Shown piece after piece: positions 24,709-32,215 of a stretch of DNA of 64,000 nt. This DNA is from Bacteroidetes bacterium HGW-Bacteroidetes-7. Its GTDB lineage: Bacteria > Bacteroidota > Bacteroidia > Bacteroidales > UBA932. Where the stretch lies: contig PHDA01000008.1 of NCBI GenBank assembly GCA_002842465.1, positions 1 to 64,000 on the forward strand, in the 5' to 3' direction. How positions within the stretch are numbered: the stretch's first letter is position 1; each line of letters begins with the position of its first letter. The translations under genes were made by a program, and so were the position numbers. The notes under the pieces are model-generated. The model was not told where the DNA came from and did not search any database. It saw only the letters and a program-made list of their open reading frames with translations.

Positions 24709-25317
24709 ATGGATATAAGAGATAGAATTATTGAGGTGTCAACCGAACTTTTTCTCCAGAACGGCTGTAAGTCCATAACAATGGATGATGTAGCCAAAGA
24801 GAACGGTATCTCAAAAAGGACCCTTTACGAGCACTTTTCAGACAAATCGCAGCTGCTGGAGGAGTGCATAGAATTTATGAAAGTACAGATGAAGGACTAT
24901 TCGATGGAGCTGGAGAAAGAGTCAGAAAATGTACTTGACCTACTGTTTAAGATTCACAGCTCCCAATCGGACCTTATAATAAATCTTAAAATAAATTTTT
25001 TCCAGGAGCTTAGAAAATACTACTACGACCTCTATAAGAAAACTGTAGAAAATGTGATGGTTTACCACATGGAGAGGATAAATGAATACATAGATAAAGG
25101 TCAGAAAGAGGGGTACATTATTAAAAATATTGACAATAAAATTGTCTCTAAAGTTGTGATTGAGATATCGCATCTATTAGAGAACTCAGATGTGTTTCCG
25201 GTTAAGGAGTACAGAAGAAAAGAGCTCTTCAAGGAGGTTGTTATTTACTATTTCAGGGGAATAGCAACTGACAAGGGGATCAAAGCAATAGATGAATATT
25301 TAGCAAATTCAAATTAA
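24709..25317 (+). CDS. TetR family transcriptional regulator
   Basis: A 202-aa regulator. Residues 1-50 form the TetR helix-turn-helix (SITMDDVAKENGISKRTLYE), followed by a mostly helical ligand-binding domain rich in charged and aromatic residues. It is first in an operon with TolC, adaptor and RND pump genes, 8 bp ahead of tolC, so it is almost surely the local repressor. A dyad overlaps its promoter. The ligand is unknown. Confidence 0.92.
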   Translation: MDIRDRIIEVSTELFLQNGCKSITMDDVAKENGISKRTLYEHFSDKSQLLEECIEFMKVQMKDYSMELEKESENVLDLLFKIHSSQSDLIINLKINFFQELRKYYYDLYKKTVENVMVYHMERINEYIDKGQKEGYIIKNIDNKIVSKVVIEISHLLENSDVFPVKEYRRKELFKEVVIYYFRGIATDKGIKAIDEYLANSN

Positions 25318-25325
25318 TTTAAATT

Positions 25326-26678
25326 ATGAAATTAAGGACAAAAGTAACCGTAGCACTTACACTTTTGATTACTGTTGCCTCAGGCAGCAGCCTGCGTGCG
25401 CAACAGGCAGCAGGTGGAACCCTTACACTGACAATCGATCAGGCACTTGAGATAGCCGTTAACGAAAACCTTAGCGTTAAAATTGCTGACGAAGAGATTA
25501 AAAGAGTTGACTGGCTTAAGACAGAAAACTGGTACTCATTGCTGCCCTCTTTAAGCGCTAATGCACAGTACACAAACAACATACTCAAGCCGGTTTTCTT
25601 CTCGGATTTTTTCCCCGGAGGAAAAATGGAGATAGGTGCAACAAACAGCTATGCTGTTAACGGAGTAATGCAGGTACCAATATTCTCGCTAACTCTGTTC
25701 AAAAGCATTCAGCTGTCTGAACTTGACCTGAAGAGTGCTCTTGAATCGGCCAGAAATACTAAGATAGAGCTTATTTCACAGGTAAAGAACTCTTTCTATG
25801 GAGTACTGATGCTGGAGCAATCTCTGGAGGTTCTTCAGGAGAGTTATAAAAACGCAGGGCAGACAGCGCAGAATATAAAAAATATGTACGAAAACGGTCT
25901 TGCATCGGAATATGATAAAATCAGATCAGATGTTGCAGTTAGAAATCTTCTTCCAACAATAACACAGGCAACCAACGGTCTTGAACTTGCAAAAATGCAG
26001 CTGAAAGTACTTTTATCCCTTGACCTGGAAACCCCTGTTGAGGTAGCCGGCAACATCTCTGATTATGAAAATGAGATTGCCGCTTTTCAGGGAATGGGTC
26101 CAATGATTCTTGACAATAACAGCTCTCTTAGAAGTCTTGACATTCAGTTGGAAAAACTTGGAAAAACATATGAGTTAATAAGGTCTCAGAGACTCCCATC
26201 TGTTGCTGGTTTTGCAAACTACCAACTGCAGATGCAGAGCGAAGAGTTTACATTCAACAGACTCTGGACAAACTCTATGGCGGTAGGTCTGGCAATTCAG
26301 ATACCTATTTTCAATAAGTTTTCCATCTCCCTTAAAGAGAAACAGACACAGGTTGGAATCAGACAAATGAGTTACCAGAGAGAGATGGTTGAGAACAATC
26401 TCTCACTTGCTCTGAAAAACTCTCTTAATGAGATGAATAGAGCCAAAATTCAACTTGAGTCAGATAAAGAGGCGGTTATGCAGGCTAAAAAGGGTTATGA
26501 AATTGCAAAGGTGAGGTATTCGACAGGAACCGGCACTCTGCTTGAACTAAACGATACAGAAGTTGCACTTACAAGGTCACAGCTAAACCTCAACCAGACA
26601 ATTTATGACTTTATAAAAGCAAGAAATGAGTACGAAAAGGTAACAGGAAACGAGAAAATAGATAAAATCAGTAACTAA
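25326..26678 (+). CDS. TolC-family outer membrane efflux protein
   Basis: A 450-aa protein with a signal peptide ending near LRAQ (residues 1-25) and two similar halves of long helices and short barrel strands (TLTIDQALEIAVNENLSVKI starts the first). It forms the outer-membrane exit duct for the RND pump encoded two genes on. Its stop overlaps the adaptor start in a TAATG junction, implying coupled translation. Substrate cannot be told from the sequence. Confidence 0.93.
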   Translation: MKLRTKVTVALTLLITVASGSSLRAQQAAGGTLTLTIDQALEIAVNENLSVKIADEEIKRVDWLKTENWYSLLPSLSANAQYTNNILKPVFFSDFFPGGKMEIGATNSYAVNGVMQVPIFSLTLFKSIQLSELDLKSALESARNTKIELISQVKNSFYGVLMLEQSLEVLQESYKNAGQTAQNIKNMYENGLASEYDKIRSDVAVRNLLPTITQATNGLELAKMQLKVLLSLDLETPVEVAGNISDYENEIAAFQGMGPMILDNNSSLRSLDIQLEKLGKTYELIRSQRLPSVAGFANYQLQMQSEEFTFNRLWTNSMAVGLAIQIPIFNKFSISLKEKQTQVGIRQMSYQREMVENNLSLALKNSLNEMNRAKIQLESDKEAVMQAKKGYEIAKVRYSTGTGTLLELNDTEVALTRSQLNLNQTIYDFIKARNEYEKVTGNEKIDKISN

Positions 26679-27724
26679 TGGAAAACAATTTATTCAGAAA
26701 TATGAAAAGAATAGCAGCACTATTACTAATCGGTACTCTGGTACTTGCATCCTGCTCGGGAGAAAAGGGAACAACAGAGACCACAGAGAAGATCTTCCCG
26801 GTTAAGGTTGCCGGAGTTGAAATGGCTCAGGTGGGCCAGGTAATTGAATTCACAGGCAATATTGAGCCTTTGGTTAAAAACTACATATCCAGCTCTGCGG
26901 CACAACGTGTAGAGAAAATTTATGTTGAGGTAGGGAGTCGTGTTACAAAAGGACAACTGCTGGTTCAAATGGAGAACATCAACTATTCTCAGGCCAGAAT
27001 TCAGCTTGAAAATCTTAAACTGGACCTTTCAAGAATTGAAGCCCTGTACAATTCAGGAGGAATAGCCGCACAGCAGTATGACCAGATGAAGACACAGGTT
27101 AAAATTGCCGAAGAGAGTATTGCCAATCTTGATAAAAACACCAAGCTTCTCTCACCAATTGACGGTATTATTGTTCAAAGAAACTTTGACAATGGTGACC
27201 TTGCAACAGGTCAGCCTATACTGGTAGTAATGCAAATGCAACCTGTAAAGATACTCATTGGTATTTCAGAGGAATTTTTCCCACAGGTTAAAATTGGAAC
27301 GCCTGTTGAGATATCACTTGACATTTATCCCGGTAAAAAATTCAATGGTAAAGTGATGCTTATCCACCCAACAATCGATGCTTCAACAAGAACATTCCAG
27401 GCCGAGGTAAGAATTGAAAATCCTTCTCTTGTGATGCGTCCGGGTATGTTTGCCAGGGCAAGGGTTGACTTTGGAACAAAAGAGAGAATCGTAGTACCCG
27501 ATAAGGCTGTTATCAAACAACAGGGCACAAACGACAAGTATGTATTTGTTCTGGATGGTGACATTGTAAGGTACACAAAAGTAGAGCTTGGAAAAAGAGT
27601 TGACTCGCTTTACGAAGTGATGAGCGGTCTTGAGCCTGGGCAGAAGATTGTAGTTGCAGGTAACACTGCCCTGATTGATGGCTCTAAAGTTCAGATCACA
27701 GAATCTGATCTAAACATTAAGTAA
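26678..27724 (+). CDS. RND efflux periplasmic adaptor (membrane fusion protein)
   Basis: A 348-aa adaptor linking the RND permease to TolC. A lipobox VLASC lies at about residues 22-26 counted from the ATG at 26678 (a second ATG at 26702 is closer to the signal), so it is a lipoprotein. It contains the lipoyl-like half motif VEKIYVEVGSRVTKGQLLVQ, a short helical hairpin around LSRIEALYNSGGIAAQQYDQ, and the second half LLSPIDGIIVQRNFDNGDL. Length and order are standard HlyD/AcrA family. Confidence 0.93.
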   Translation: MENNLFRNMKRIAALLLIGTLVLASCSGEKGTTETTEKIFPVKVAGVEMAQVGQVIEFTGNIEPLVKNYISSSAAQRVEKIYVEVGSRVTKGQLLVQMENINYSQARIQLENLKLDLSRIEALYNSGGIAAQQYDQMKTQVKIAEESIANLDKNTKLLSPIDGIIVQRNFDNGDLATGQPILVVMQMQPVKILIGISEEFFPQVKIGTPVEISLDIYPGKKFNGKVMLIHPTIDASTRTFQAEVRIENPSLVMRPGMFARARVDFGTKERIVVPDKAVIKQQGTNDKYVFVLDGDIVRYTKVELGKRVDSLYEVMSGLEPGQKIVVAGNTALIDGSKVQITESDLNIK

Positions 27725-27746: not shown

Positions 27747-30700
27747 ATGAAAATATACGAAAGTGCAGTAAAAAAACCGGTTACCACGGCCCTCATATTT
27801 GTGGGGATAATGGTATTTGGTCTCTTCTCTTTCTCAAAACTTTCGGTTGACCTCTATCCCGAAATAGAGCTCAATGCGGTTATGGTAATGACCACATACT
27901 CCGGAGCGAGTGCATCCGATATTGAGCAGAATGTGACCAAGAGAATGGAGATGTCCCTGAGTACAGTATCTGACCTAAAAAAGATTACATCTGTCTCAAA
28001 GGATAATATCTCAATGATTACAGTTGAGTTTGAGTATGGGACAGATATGACCGAAGCGGTGAACGATATCCGCTCTGTTATAGATATGCTCAGGAACTTT
28101 CTTCCTGAGGGGGTTGAAAATCCTGTAATTCTCAAATTTAACTCAACAATGATTCCTGTTGCCTTCATATCTGCAAGAACATCACAGAATGTGCAAGGGC
28201 TGTATAAAATTCTCGAAGATAAAGTAGGTAACCCCATTAATCGTATAGACGGGGTAGCCTCAGTCTCAATTTCGGGAGCTCCGCAAAGAGAGATTCAGGT
28301 ATTAACCGATCCAAGAAAACTTGAGGCTTACAGGCTTACAGTTGAGCAAGTTGCAGGTGTTCTTGCAATGGAGAACAGAAATGTTCCTGGTGGAAATATC
28401 GACATCGGGTCGGAGACCTTCTCTGTTAAAGTTGACGGTGAGTTTAAATCTAGTGACGAAATCAAGGAAATTATTGTAGGAAGCTTTAACGGGCGCAGTA
28501 TCTACATTAAAGATATTGCCACAGTTAAAGATACCCTTAAAGAGCGTGCCACAGAAGTATTGACCAACGGTGAGAGGGCTGCAACAATTGTGGTTCAGAA
28601 ACAGTCCGGAGCAAACGTGGTAGATATTGCCAATAAGATACAGTTGGAACTGGAGAGGATTAAACCACTTCTTCCTCCTGACATTCAACTGGAGATGATT
28701 ATGGATACTTCGGAATTTATAAAGGGAAGTATAGGGTCACTTACAGAAACAGTGCTTCTTGCAGGCCTGTTTGTAATGATAGTGGTACTTTTCTTCCTGG
28801 GAAGATGGAGGGCTACCTTTATAATCATACTTACAATTCCGGTTTCGCTGATTGCTGCATTCATCTACCTGATGATATCGGGCAATACTCTGAATATTAT
28901 ATCGTTAAGCTCATTATCCATAGCAATTGGTATGGTGGTAGATGATGCTATTGTGGTACTTGAGAATATAACATCGCATATTGAGAAGGGCAGTAAACCT
29001 AAGGATGCAGCAATTTATGCCACAAATGAGGTGGCGGTTGCGGTAATTGCATCAACCCTTACAATTGTAGCGGTATTCTTCCCGTTGACAATGGTTTCGG
29101 GGCTTGCAGGTATAATGTTTAAACAACTTGGTTGGATTGTTACCATAATCATAACAGTTTCAACAATTGCAGCTCTTACCCTTACGCCAATGCTTAGTTC
29201 AAAAATGCTCAGAAAGGATCCTAAGAGAAGTAAGGCATTCATGTTCTTTTACGCACCAATAGAAAGAGGGCTTGATGGACTAGACAGGGCATACGAAAGA
29301 TTCCTTACCTGGGCACTTGGCCACAGACTTCTTGTAATCTTTTCGGCATTAGCCCTCTTTGTATCAAGTCTTTTGCTCCTTACCAGGGTTGGAACGGACT
29401 TTTTCCCCGCAGTGGACAATTCTCAAATCGGGGTTACAGTAGAACTTCCGGTTGGAACAAGGGTTGAACACTCAAGAGAACTCAACCAATATCTGTACAG
29501 CCAATGGAAAGATAAATACCCTGAAATTGAGGTAATGTCAACCACAATGGGACAATCAGACGGGTCAAACATCTTCCTTTCTATGGGTAATTCAGGTACA
29601 CATCTCATCTCATATACAATGAAGATGACACATGTCAACTCAAGAAAAAGGGATATATTCGAGATTTCTGACCTTATTAGGAAAGATCTAGAAGCAATTC
29701 CTGAGATCTACCGTTTTGAGGTAATGCCCGGAGGATCAAATGAGGGTATGGGTACCGGAGGCTCTTCTCTGGAGATGAATGTACTTGGTTACAACATGGA
29801 GGATGCTGAGGCGGTTGCACATCAGGTTGCCGAAATAATGAAGGGCACAGAGGGTCTTAGAGATGTAAAACTCAGTCGTGAGAACTACATGCCTCAGCTT
29901 AAGGTTCAGTTTGACAGAGCCAAACTTGCTTTGAACGGAATAAGTCTTACCAATGCAGCTACAGCCGTAAGAAACAGAATCAATGGTATAATTACTACTC
30001 AGTTCAGAGAAGATGGCGATGAGTACGATATTGTTGTAAGAAATGAAATAAAATTCAGATCCAACATAGATGATGTCAGGGCTATATTGCTGTACAATAA
30101 TCAAGGTAGGGCTATCAGATTAAGTGAAGTTGCAGATGTTATAGAAGATTTTGCACCTCCATCTATAGAGCACCTTGACAGAGAGAGAGTTGTTAAGATT
30201 ACAGGATCGGTTTACAACAGACCACTTGGAGATATTGCGGCTGAAGTAACAACAGCGGTAAATCAAATTACACTTCCGGCAAATATTGTGATTAAAACAT
30301 CCGGAGCTTATGAAGAGCAGCAGGAGTCCTTTATGGACATGATAACTCTTTTGTTGCTTGTAATTATGCTTACATACATTGTGATGGCAGCTCAGTTTGA
30401 ATCATTCAGGGACCCATTCATAATTATGTTCTCGCTGCCATTTGCTTTCACAGGAGTATTTGCCGCGCTATGGATAACCGGAACATCTCTAAGTCTTATT
30501 GCGCTGATTGGTGCTGTTATGCTTGTAGGTATTGTTGTAAAGAACGGTATTGTGCTCATTGACTACATCAATCTCAACAAAGAGAGGGGAATGAGTATTA
30601 TGAAGTCGGTTGTCTCAGGAGGTAAATCGAGGTTAAGACCTGTACTTATGACAACTGTTACTACCATTCTGGGTATGGTTCCGATGGCTATTGGAATAGG

Positions 30701-30875
30701 CGAAGGTTCAGAGATATGGCAACCTATGGGTATTGCTATTATCGGAGGTCTTAGCGTATCTACTCTCTTAACTTTGGTTGTGATTCCAACTATTTATACA
30801 TCACTTCATGTAAGGGAGATGTCTAAGAAGAGAAAAGCTCATGCAAAAGGACTCAAATTAAAAAATGCAAGATAA
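27747..30875 (+). CDS. RND efflux transporter permease, HAE-1-like
   Basis: A 1042-aa inner-membrane proton antiporter with 12 predicted helices and two large periplasmic loops. The proton-relay Asp pair is Asp399-Asp400 in AIGMVVDDAIVVLENI. The double Asp fits the HAE-1 multidrug type; heavy-metal (CzcA) pumps usually differ in this region. Length is normal. It is 22 bp downstream of the adaptor, and its TAA overlaps the ATG of a PII-like gene (TAATG), so the small protein should be made in coupled amounts. Confidence 0.94.
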   Translation: MKIYESAVKKPVTTALIFVGIMVFGLFSFSKLSVDLYPEIELNAVMVMTTYSGASASDIEQNVTKRMEMSLSTVSDLKKITSVSKDNISMITVEFEYGTDMTEAVNDIRSVIDMLRNFLPEGVENPVILKFNSTMIPVAFISARTSQNVQGLYKILEDKVGNPINRIDGVASVSISGAPQREIQVLTDPRKLEAYRLTVEQVAGVLAMENRNVPGGNIDIGSETFSVKVDGEFKSSDEIKEIIVGSFNGRSIYIKDIATVKDTLKERATEVLTNGERAATIVVQKQSGANVVDIANKIQLELERIKPLLPPDIQLEMIMDTSEFIKGSIGSLTETVLLAGLFVMIVVLFFLGRWRATFIIILTIPVSLIAAFIYLMISGNTLNIISLSSLSIAIGMVVDDAIVVLENITSHIEKGSKPKDAAIYATNEVAVAVIASTLTIVAVFFPLTMVSGLAGIMFKQLGWIVTIIITVSTIAALTLTPMLSSKMLRKDPKRSKAFMFFYAPIERGLDGLDRAYERFLTWALGHRLLVIFSALALFVSSLLLLTRVGTDFFPAVDNSQIGVTVELPVGTRVEHSRELNQYLYSQWKDKYPEIEVMSTTMGQSDGSNIFLSMGNSGTHLISYTMKMTHVNSRKRDIFEISDLIRKDLEAIPEIYRFEVMPGGSNEGMGTGGSSLEMNVLGYNMEDAEAVAHQVAEIMKGTEGLRDVKLSRENYMPQLKVQFDRAKLALNGISLTNAATAVRNRINGIITTQFREDGDEYDIVVRNEIKFRSNIDDVRAILLYNNQGRAIRLSEVADVIEDFAPPSIEHLDRERVVKITGSVYNRPLGDIAAEVTTAVNQITLPANIVIKTSGAYEEQQESFMDMITLLLLVIMLTYIVMAAQFESFRDPFIIMFSLPFAFTGVFAALWITGTSLSLIALIGAVMLVGIVVKNGIVLIDYINLNKERGMSIMKSVVSGGKSRLRPVLMTTVTTILGMVPMAIGIGEGSEIWQPMGIAIIGGLSVSTLLTLVVIPTIYTSLHVREMSKKRKAHAKGLKLKNAR

Positions 30876-31168
30876 TGAAAGCTGTAATGATAATATACAA
30901 CCAGGCCCACTCAAGTGTGGTTATGGAAATTCTGGACAACTGTAACGTAAGGGGTTTTACCAAATGGGTTGATGTTCAGGGAAGAGGCTCTGTAAAGGGT
31001 GAGCCTCACTACGGAACCCATGCCTGGCCATCCAAAAATATGGCAATTCTGGCTGTTGTGCCCGAAGAGTTTCTGGCTCCTCTTCTAAAGGAGCTCAAAG
31101 CAGAAAATAACGCTGCAAAGGAACAAGGTATGAGAGCTTTTGTTTGGGAGGCAGAATCAGTTATTTAG
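30875..31168 (+). CDS. Small PII-like protein coupled to the RND pump
   Basis: A 97-aa soluble protein with a beta-alpha-beta-beta-alpha-beta pattern: MKAVMIIYNQAHSSVVMEIL, then the loop VRGFTKWVDVQGRGSVKGEP, then NMAILAVVPEEFLAPLLKEL and a final strand AFVWEAESV. This fits the PII/CutA-like ferredoxin fold. The T-loop is short and the uridylylated Tyr region of GlnB is missing, so it is not a nitrogen-sensing GlnB. Its ATG overlaps the RND stop. A trimeric sensor acting on the pump is inference. It is followed by a strong terminator. Confidence 0.72.
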   Translation: MKAVMIIYNQAHSSVVMEILDNCNVRGFTKWVDVQGRGSVKGEPHYGTHAWPSKNMAILAVVPEEFLAPLLKELKAENNAAKEQGMRAFVWEAESVI

Positions 31169-31170
31169 TT

Positions 31171-31199
31171 AAGAGGGGCATAAGCCCCTCTTCTTTTTA
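31171..31199 (+). terminator. Intrinsic terminator of the efflux operon
   Basis: Nine-base-pair stem AAGAGGGGC (31171-31179) with GCCCCTCTT (31184-31192), loop ATAA, then a T-rich tail to 31199. It begins 3 bp after the PII-like stop, closing the operon. Confidence 0.92.
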
Positions 31200-31293: not shown

Positions 31294-31611
31294 ATGGCTA
31301 TAGCAGTAAACGATTCAAATTTTAACGAAATAGTTATTAATTCAGATAAACCTGTACTGGTTGACTTCTGGGCTCCATGGTGCGGTCCTTGCCGCATGAT
31401 TGCTCCAATAGTTGATGAACTGGCTGTTGAGTATGATGGTAAAGCAGTCATTACCAAGTGTGATGTTGACTCTAACGAGTCTATTCCTGTGAAATATTCA
31501 ATCAGGAATATACCTACAATTCTTTTTTTCAAAAACGGAGAGCTAAAAGATAAAATTGTGGGGTCTACAACAAAGGCTGCAATTGCAGCCAAGCTAAACG
31601 ATCTAATGTAA
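31294..31611 (+). CDS. trxA: Thioredoxin
   Basis: Cytosolic disulfide reductase of 105 aa. The active site is WCGPC with Cys30 and Cys33, followed by the MIAPIVDELA helix and the cis-Pro loop NIPTILFF. Standard thioredoxin length, no signal peptide. It lies behind the efflux terminator with a 94-bp leader and 7 bp before the outer membrane barrel gene, so those two may be cotranscribed. Confidence 0.97.
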   Translation: MAIAVNDSNFNEIVINSDKPVLVDFWAPWCGPCRMIAPIVDELAVEYDGKAVITKCDVDSNESIPVKYSIRNIPTILFFKNGELKDKIVGSTTKAAIAAKLNDLM

Positions 31612-31618
31612 AAATAAA

Positions 31619-32215
31619 ATGAAAAAAATTGCGGTATTAGTATTAGGAATCCTTATTCTGTCTGCATCGGCAACCGCTCAGTCAAAGTTTGGAGTAAAGG
31701 GTGGACTTAACTTCAACTCCCTAAAGGATATTTCAGATAATGTTGATGATACCTGGGGCAAACAGACAGGTTATCATTTTGGAATCACATACCAGTTTAA
31801 GGTTCCTGTTATAGGTATTGGACTGCAGCCCGATCTCCTTTTTGTAAGGCAAGGCGCCGAGAATACAACAGGCCCTAATCAAAGTTTCTACCTTGATTAT
31901 CTTACTCTTCCTCTAAATATTCAGCTTGGTCTGGATCTTTTGCTTATAAGGCCGTTTATAATGTTTTCTCCATACATTTCTTATGCTGTAGGAAAGGGAG
32001 ATTCATTCGAAACAGCCGAATGGGACGATATAAACAGATTTGACTATGGTTACGGCATTGGTGCCGGTGTAGATATTTGGAAGCTCCAGGTTAGCGGAAA
32101 ATATAACTGGGGTCTTGGGAAATTGCAGTCTGCAGGTGCAGGTGCTATTAACGGGGAAACATTTTCAAATGCAAAACTGCAAGGCTTTCAGCTTTCAGTA
32201 AGTATAATGTTTTAA
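31619..32215 (+). CDS. Outer membrane beta-barrel protein, PorT-like
   Basis: A 198-aa secreted protein with signal peptide (MKKIAVLVLGILILSASATA), then the motif KFGVKGGLNFNSL that begins small barrel proteins of the PorT/OmpW-like group in Bacteroidota, alternating strands and a final strand ending in Phe (FQLSVSIMF), a barrel assembly signal. The exact role is unknown; PorT of the type IX secretion system is related but cannot be claimed. Starts 7 bp after trxA. Confidence 0.8.
   Translation: MKKIAVLVLGILILSASATAQSKFGVKGGLNFNSLKDISDNVDDTWGKQTGYHFGITYQFKVPVIGIGLQPDLLFVRQGAENTTGPNQSFYLDYLTLPLNIQLGLDLLLIRPFIMFSPYISYAVGKGDSFETAEWDDINRFDYGYGIGAGVDIWKLQVSGKYNWGLGKLQSAGAGAINGETFSNAKLQGFQLSVSIMF

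Follow-up and report, generated by a model that had tools for sequence, protein, structure and literature searches.

A PII-like protein of the PG0541 family that accompanies one branch of RND efflux pumps in Bacteroidales

The pump cluster and its last gene

The window analysed here, a stretch of 64,000 nucleotides from contig PHDA01000008.1 of Bacteroidetes bacterium HGW-Bacteroidetes-7, carries a cluster of five genes on the forward strand, encoding a TetR-family regulator, a TolC-like channel, an adaptor, an RND permease and a PII-like protein of 97 aa. The source genome (2.39 Mb in 42 contigs, 92% complete) contains four large RND permease genes. The features that bear on the analysis are the following.

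24709..25317, + strand: TetR-family regulator, first gene of the cluster (Pfam TetR_N, 49 bits, cut-off 24)
25326..26678, + strand: TolC-like outer-membrane channel subunit (Pfam OEP, 169 bits)
26678..27724, + strand: periplasmic adaptor (membrane fusion) subunit (NCBIfam TIGR01730, 209 bits, cut-off 94.9)
27747..30875, + strand: RND permease of the HAE-like branch, 1042 aa (Pfam ACR_tran, 863 bits; DD proton-relay pair in TM4)
28788..28814, + strand: TM2-TM3 cytosolic loop of the pump, residues 348-356, a possible docking surface (conservation relative to PII-less clades)
28962..29027, + strand: TM4-TM5 cytosolic loop of the pump, residues 406-427, the most likely docking surface (top window of excess conservation)
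30875..31168, + strand: PII-like protein of the PG0541 family, 97 aa (NF045581, Pfam P-II, AlphaFold2 model, match to CPII)
30980..31039, + strand: T-loop region of the PII-like protein, residues 36-55, GRGSVKGEPHYGTHAWPSKN (conservation; modelled with low confidence, pLDDT about 66)
31171..31192, + strand: hairpin resembling an intrinsic terminator (9-pair stem, 6 GC, T-rich tail)

The open reading frame at 30875-31168 represents a real gene, since it has relatives of 42-75% identity across its full length and matches two protein families, NCBIfam NF045581 ("PG0541 family transporter-associated protein"; 110.4 bits, cut-off 45, profile positions 1-91 of 91) and Pfam P-II (PF00543; 39.6 bits, gathering cut-off 25, profile positions 1-95 of 102). 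Because the family is already catalogued under both entries, the window gene is an additional member of a known family; it matches NF045581 over its full length, and nothing distinguishes it from the other members. It is the only gene in the 92%-complete source genome with a Pfam P-II match.

The initial annotation had described a start codon overlapping the RND stop codon and a terminator at the end of the gene, and both observations were borne out. The last A of the RND stop codon TAA is the A of the PII-like ATG (TAATG, an overlap of 1 nt). The channel and adaptor reading frames likewise share one base, the former ending and the latter starting at 26678, so a start-stop overlap is not peculiar to the PII-like gene. 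The GC-rich hairpin lies 3 nt past the stop codon of the PII-like gene and is followed by CTTTTTATGT. Combinations of a hairpin and a T-run are not above chance in the region (5 matches versus 5.1 expected from shuffles); the hairpin at 31171-31192 has the most stem pairs and the most GC pairs of the five. Further downstream, positions 31294-32215 hold a thioredoxin gene and the gene of an outer-membrane beta-barrel protein, which resembles NF049866 and scores below its cut-off. These two genes also follow the PII-like gene in close relatives (L073, L133, L137, L188, L203), and do not in more distant ones.

The permease is an HAE-type pump and not of the heavy-metal kind. Its closest NCBIfam model is the multidrug model NF033617 (767 bits, versus 469 bits for the CusA/CzcA model TIGR00914; both scores are under the cut-offs), and the adjacent aspartates in TM4 (VVDDAIVV) are conserved as DD in 124/124 relatives. 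Elsewhere in the source genome (locus L256, contig C42) there is a tandem of two RND permease genes whose ends overlap; a PII gene accompanies neither. Their proton relays may differ, since relatives of one have DN as the TM4 pair and the other reads IIDTS there.

A member of the PII superfamily with a conserved T-loop

An AlphaFold2 model of the PII-like protein, built on an alignment of 75 sequences, has a mean pLDDT of 87 and the order beta-alpha-beta-beta-alpha-beta, with strands at residues 2-9, 29-34, 55-62 and 86-92, helices at 10-22 and 64-80, and a loop (35-54) joining strands 2 and 3. The strand-helix pattern originally read from the translation agrees with this model. The best match among solved structures is CPII of Thiomonas (Foldseek E 9e-8 to 2e-6; VIA-align 2 Z 13.1, rmsd 1.5 over 84 residues, 29% identity). 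Next come SbtB, GlnK and further PII proteins, with Z about 11. In a profile search of the PDB the first matches were two designed repeat proteins; these were dismissed as chance, single repeats scoring below 6 bits each. The protein is thus a member of the PII superfamily with a ferredoxin-like predicted fold. Of the earlier designation "PII/CutA-type", the PII part stands and the CutA part does not. By its likeness to PII proteins, the protein probably forms a homotrimer.

The T-loop is reduced, as had been proposed, being about 4 residues shorter than that of Escherichia coli GlnK, and it is the most conserved part of the protein. The mean frequency of the top residue is 0.80 at residues 36-55 and 0.60 elsewhere, and the region follows the pattern GRGSxxGEPHxGTHxWPxxN. 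Residues G36, G38, G42, P44, H49, W51 and P52 are invariant in 75 sequences; of the T-loop histidines, H49 is thus invariant and H45 is mostly kept. Members of the PG0541-type subfamily have a single invariant histidine and no conserved cysteine. Two signatures present in E. coli GlnK, the T-loop signature YRGAEY with its modified tyrosine (PS00496) and the B-loop signature with GDGK (PS00638), were each found in 0/143 family sequences. The C-terminal C-loop with its ATP arginines is also absent, the family chains stopping a few residues past strand 4.

Association with one pump branch and a candidate docking surface

Members of the family were detected by profile search in 119 of 247 genomes of the same order (Bacteroidales). 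In a set of 80 stretches plus the window, all 56 strong members directly follow a co-oriented RND gene, which is preceded by channel and adaptor genes wherever the stretch is long enough. Two more distant RND-linked subfamilies behave in the same way (15/15 members just 3' of an RND gene), as does one further, very divergent PII-like protein. Among 80 named loci from the genome collection the RND gene is adjacent in 75 and 595 nt upstream in one; two loci are cut by a contig end and two are orphans.

The reverse search, with the window RND permease as the query (E 1e-200, the same 247 genomes), returned 121 pumps. The PII-like gene is the next gene downstream of 119 of these; in one case (G341) it is elsewhere in the genome and in one (G227) it is missing. 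Counted by genome, 110 have both genes, one has the pump only, nine have the PII-like gene only and 127 have neither (Fisher test, p 4e-58, sequence relatedness ignored). Of the nine PII-only genomes, most of those inspected have a pump gene that is truncated by a contig end, carries a frameshift or scores slightly below the threshold. In five genomes the branch pump shares 44-54% identity with the window permease, as against 22-33% for almost all other RND genes. No PII-like reading frame was found beside 42 control pumps from two other RND branches.

Several genomes offer natural separations of the pair (loci L173 with L228, L230 with L231, L229, and L227). In a Porphyromonas MAG (G444) the PII-like gene (L173) lies among unrelated genes and an intact pump without a PII gene is found on another contig (L228), and in G341 the PII-like gene and an intact pump are again on different contigs. 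G227, of the same genus as G341, has an intact pump and no PII-like gene anywhere in its genome. In G445, PII genes remain and all that is left of the decayed pump is a C-terminal piece. Since the PII-like gene and the pump are kept in trans, their pairing is not due only to shared transcription. The PII-like protein is dedicated to one branch of RND pumps, and the association is near-obligate even when the genes are apart. The initial annotation, which saw the protein as dedicated to an RND pump, is well supported here, and the survey of other genomes confirmed the linkage of the family to RND genes. Neither of the two grounds that it had named for its own refutation, a predicted fold other than ferredoxin-like and a lack of RND linkage in other genomes, was borne out. 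Its proposal of translational coupling fared less well: the start-stop overlap exists in the window and is not conserved, occurring in 10/126 distinct pairs (nine by 4 nt and one by 1 nt; median gap 16.5 nt), and was ruled out as a conserved coupling signal.

The more distant RND-linked subfamilies (loci L123-L131 and L058-L061) have motifs of their own: a Bacteroidales group has CxCN close to its N-terminus and, in the T-loop, VWPGYN, and a group from other Bacteroidota has GKGHxTDxHLGTRxFPG. In some genomes the main and the CxCN types occur together, each behind its own RND gene. Profile matches below 29 bits from other Bacteroidota classes (L062-L068, L070, L071) have no RND neighbour, resemble other PII groups and were rejected.

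For the pump, conservation in 125 branch members was compared with that in two PII-less branches from the order (mean pairwise identities of the three sets 0.51, 0.53 and 0.44); sample sizes were matched and the topology was transferred from AcrB. Two cytosolic loops were more conserved in the PII-linked branch: the TM4-TM5 loop (entropy 0.73 versus 1.48 for the first control and 0.63 versus 1.57 for the second) and the TM2-TM3 loop (0.67 versus 1.18 and 0.59 versus 1.26). The remaining cytosolic segments showed no such difference, or the reverse, in the same two-control comparison. Along the whole pump, 949 sliding windows of 19 residues were scored by the smaller of the two excess conservation values, the uneven relatedness of the sets being uncorrected; the top window, residues 409-427, scored 0.81 (mean of all windows -0.05, sd 0.26) and the next non-overlapping one 0.47. 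The conserved loop could serve a purpose other than PII docking. In G227 the pump has an unchanged TM4-TM5 loop; the loss of the PII-like gene there may be recent, since the sister genome keeps the gene elsewhere. Residue H411 in the TM4-TM5 loop was ruled out as an exclusive marker of PII partners, a histidine being found at this position in 6/23 other pumps. Covariation between the PII-like protein and the pump is dominated by relatedness: in the top 0.5% of pairs, cytosolic loops show no excess overall (67 versus about 60 expected), and in the two pairs that rank highest, PII residues 50 and 12 are matched with the cytosolic loop TM10-TM11.

Proposed role and comparison with known systems

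The PII-like protein is probably a dedicated cytosolic regulator of the RND pump, because its gene comes and goes with that branch of pumps. PII proteins are trimers, as are RND permeases. It is well established that GlnK blocks AmtB and that SbtB binds SbtA, in each case trimer on trimer from the cytosolic side and through the T-loops (see also PMC10710835). On balance we favour a trimeric cytosolic subunit that docks on the pump and tunes efflux in response to a putative ligand. We infer the trimer, its docking and the docking site, and likewise an allosteric or sensor role for the protein. In the proposed mechanism, the PII-like protein would be the fifth, cytosolic component of one HAE-like branch of RND tripartite pumps in Bacteroidota. 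Its trimer would be stacked against the RND trimer from the cytosolic side, their three-fold axes aligned, with the conserved T-loops touching the short TM4-TM5 and TM2-TM3 cytosolic loops beside the proton-relay helices. A putative small cytosolic ligand would bind at the base of the T-loop or between subunits, and the efflux cycle may be raised or lowered depending on this ligand. A broader and more tentative suggestion is that a PII-type metabolic switch directly gates a multidrug-type RND pump from the cytosol; the export of drugs and bile salts by Bacteroidales would then follow the state of the cell with respect to energy, carbon or nitrogen.

Other roles are conceivable. It is unlikely that the protein acts as a CutA-like cytosolic sensor or chaperone that feeds a metal or small molecule to the pump, with the conserved histidines as its site. 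HAE pumps usually load from the periplasm or the outer leaflet, and the pump in the window is of the HAE and not the heavy-metal kind. The histidines H49 and H45 would suit such a site; however, only the former is invariant, and a conserved cysteine is absent in the subfamily. A sensor of this sort is also suggested by the related PII-NG group, which accompanies CzcABC metal pumps and was put forward as a cobalt sensor (PMC7726332). The strict pairing and the position right after the RND gene would suit a stoichiometric subunit on which the RND trimer depends to assemble or stay stable, with no ligand-dependent regulation. We consider this rather improbable, given that almost every PII fold studied so far acts as a ligand-gated switch and that G227 retains an intact pump without the PII-like gene.

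Control of expression is a poorer prospect still. Here the PII-like protein would bind the TetR regulator of its operon and relieve or strengthen repression, much as GlnK of Corynebacterium glutamicum acts on the TetR-family protein AmtR. A TetR gene heads the cluster in the window and in 80/109 testable clusters. About 28 of the 109, however, have no TetR gene upstream of the channel gene, which makes this role less likely and weakens TetR as a constant partner. The PII-like gene is present in all of these, so the pump is the constant partner; moreover, the PII-like gene lies behind the pump gene, not beside the regulator, and is kept with the pump even after relocation. An ordinary nitrogen-regulation PII (GlnB/GlnK) that stands beside a pump by chance is highly improbable and was ruled out as far as sequence and context go: the protein passes the Pfam P-II cut-off, but canonical signatures and C-loop arginines are absent from the family, ammonium transporter and glutamine synthetase genes are absent among the neighbours examined, 119/121 pumps are paired, and the gene is the sole P-II gene found in its genome.

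A regulatory subunit docked on the pump, the reading we prefer, would matter for several reasons. Intrinsic drug tolerance rests centrally on RND pumps, and few cases are known in which their activity, rather than their expression, is regulated. A PII-like protein that stays with one pump branch across an order, even when the genes are apart, provides a testable case for ligand-dependent control of RND pumps from the cytosol, with a candidate docking surface named. If true, it would give a function to a family now merely called "transporter-associated".

The same gene order (TetR, TolC, adaptor, permease, PG0541) is seen in an annotated record of Parabacteroides distasonis. A 117-kb record labelled as a P. 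distasonis plasmid (L261) has the whole pump cluster and the PG0541 gene beside pth and the gene for ribosomal protein L25; it may be a misassigned chromosomal contig, since the cluster adjoins chromosomal-looking genes. In Porphyromonas gingivalis the pump just before PG0541 is presumably XepCAB (PG0538-PG0540), reportedly an exporter of rifampin, puromycin and ethidium bromide. PG0541 itself has appeared as a hypothetical protein with a 2.13-fold rise in a rat-inoculation microarray (PMC4493947) and in a 2007 list of Bacteroidales-specific proteins (PMC1887533). Among the papers covered by a full-text literature search, no functional study of the PG0541 family was found. The system had been called poorly described, which holds for its function; the transporter link is recorded in the NCBIfam family name, and PII-NG with CzcABC has been described.

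Among known systems, AcrZ and other small proteins that modulate RND pumps are also small pump accessories (PMC10710835); AcrZ, however, is a single membrane helix, whereas the window protein is soluble and ferredoxin-like. CPII is the closest solved structure and shares GxGS at the base of the T-loop, but it is without the PHxGTHxWP motif, its relatives accompany inorganic-carbon transporters (DUF2309), and it binds ADP, AMP and bicarbonate. GlnK-AmtB and SbtB-SbtA likewise tie a PII-fold protein to one membrane transporter and may, by analogy, indicate the likely way of working; the transporters are different, and the nucleotide and 2-oxoglutarate residues of GlnK are absent in the window protein. 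The closest described system is PII-NG (Sant'Anna et al. 2009, as cited in PMC7726332). This PII group occurs in Proteobacteria together with heavy-metal RND pumps of the CzcABC class, and its representative in Geobacter sulfurreducens, GSU2134, is the first gene of its operon. The window pump falls outside the CzcABC class by its scores (767 versus 469 bits) and its DD pair. The two are set apart by description: a CzcABC pump with the PII gene first (in Geobacter) in one, an HAE-like pump with the PII gene last in the other. What they share is an operon that unites a PII-like gene with the genes of an RND tripartite pump.
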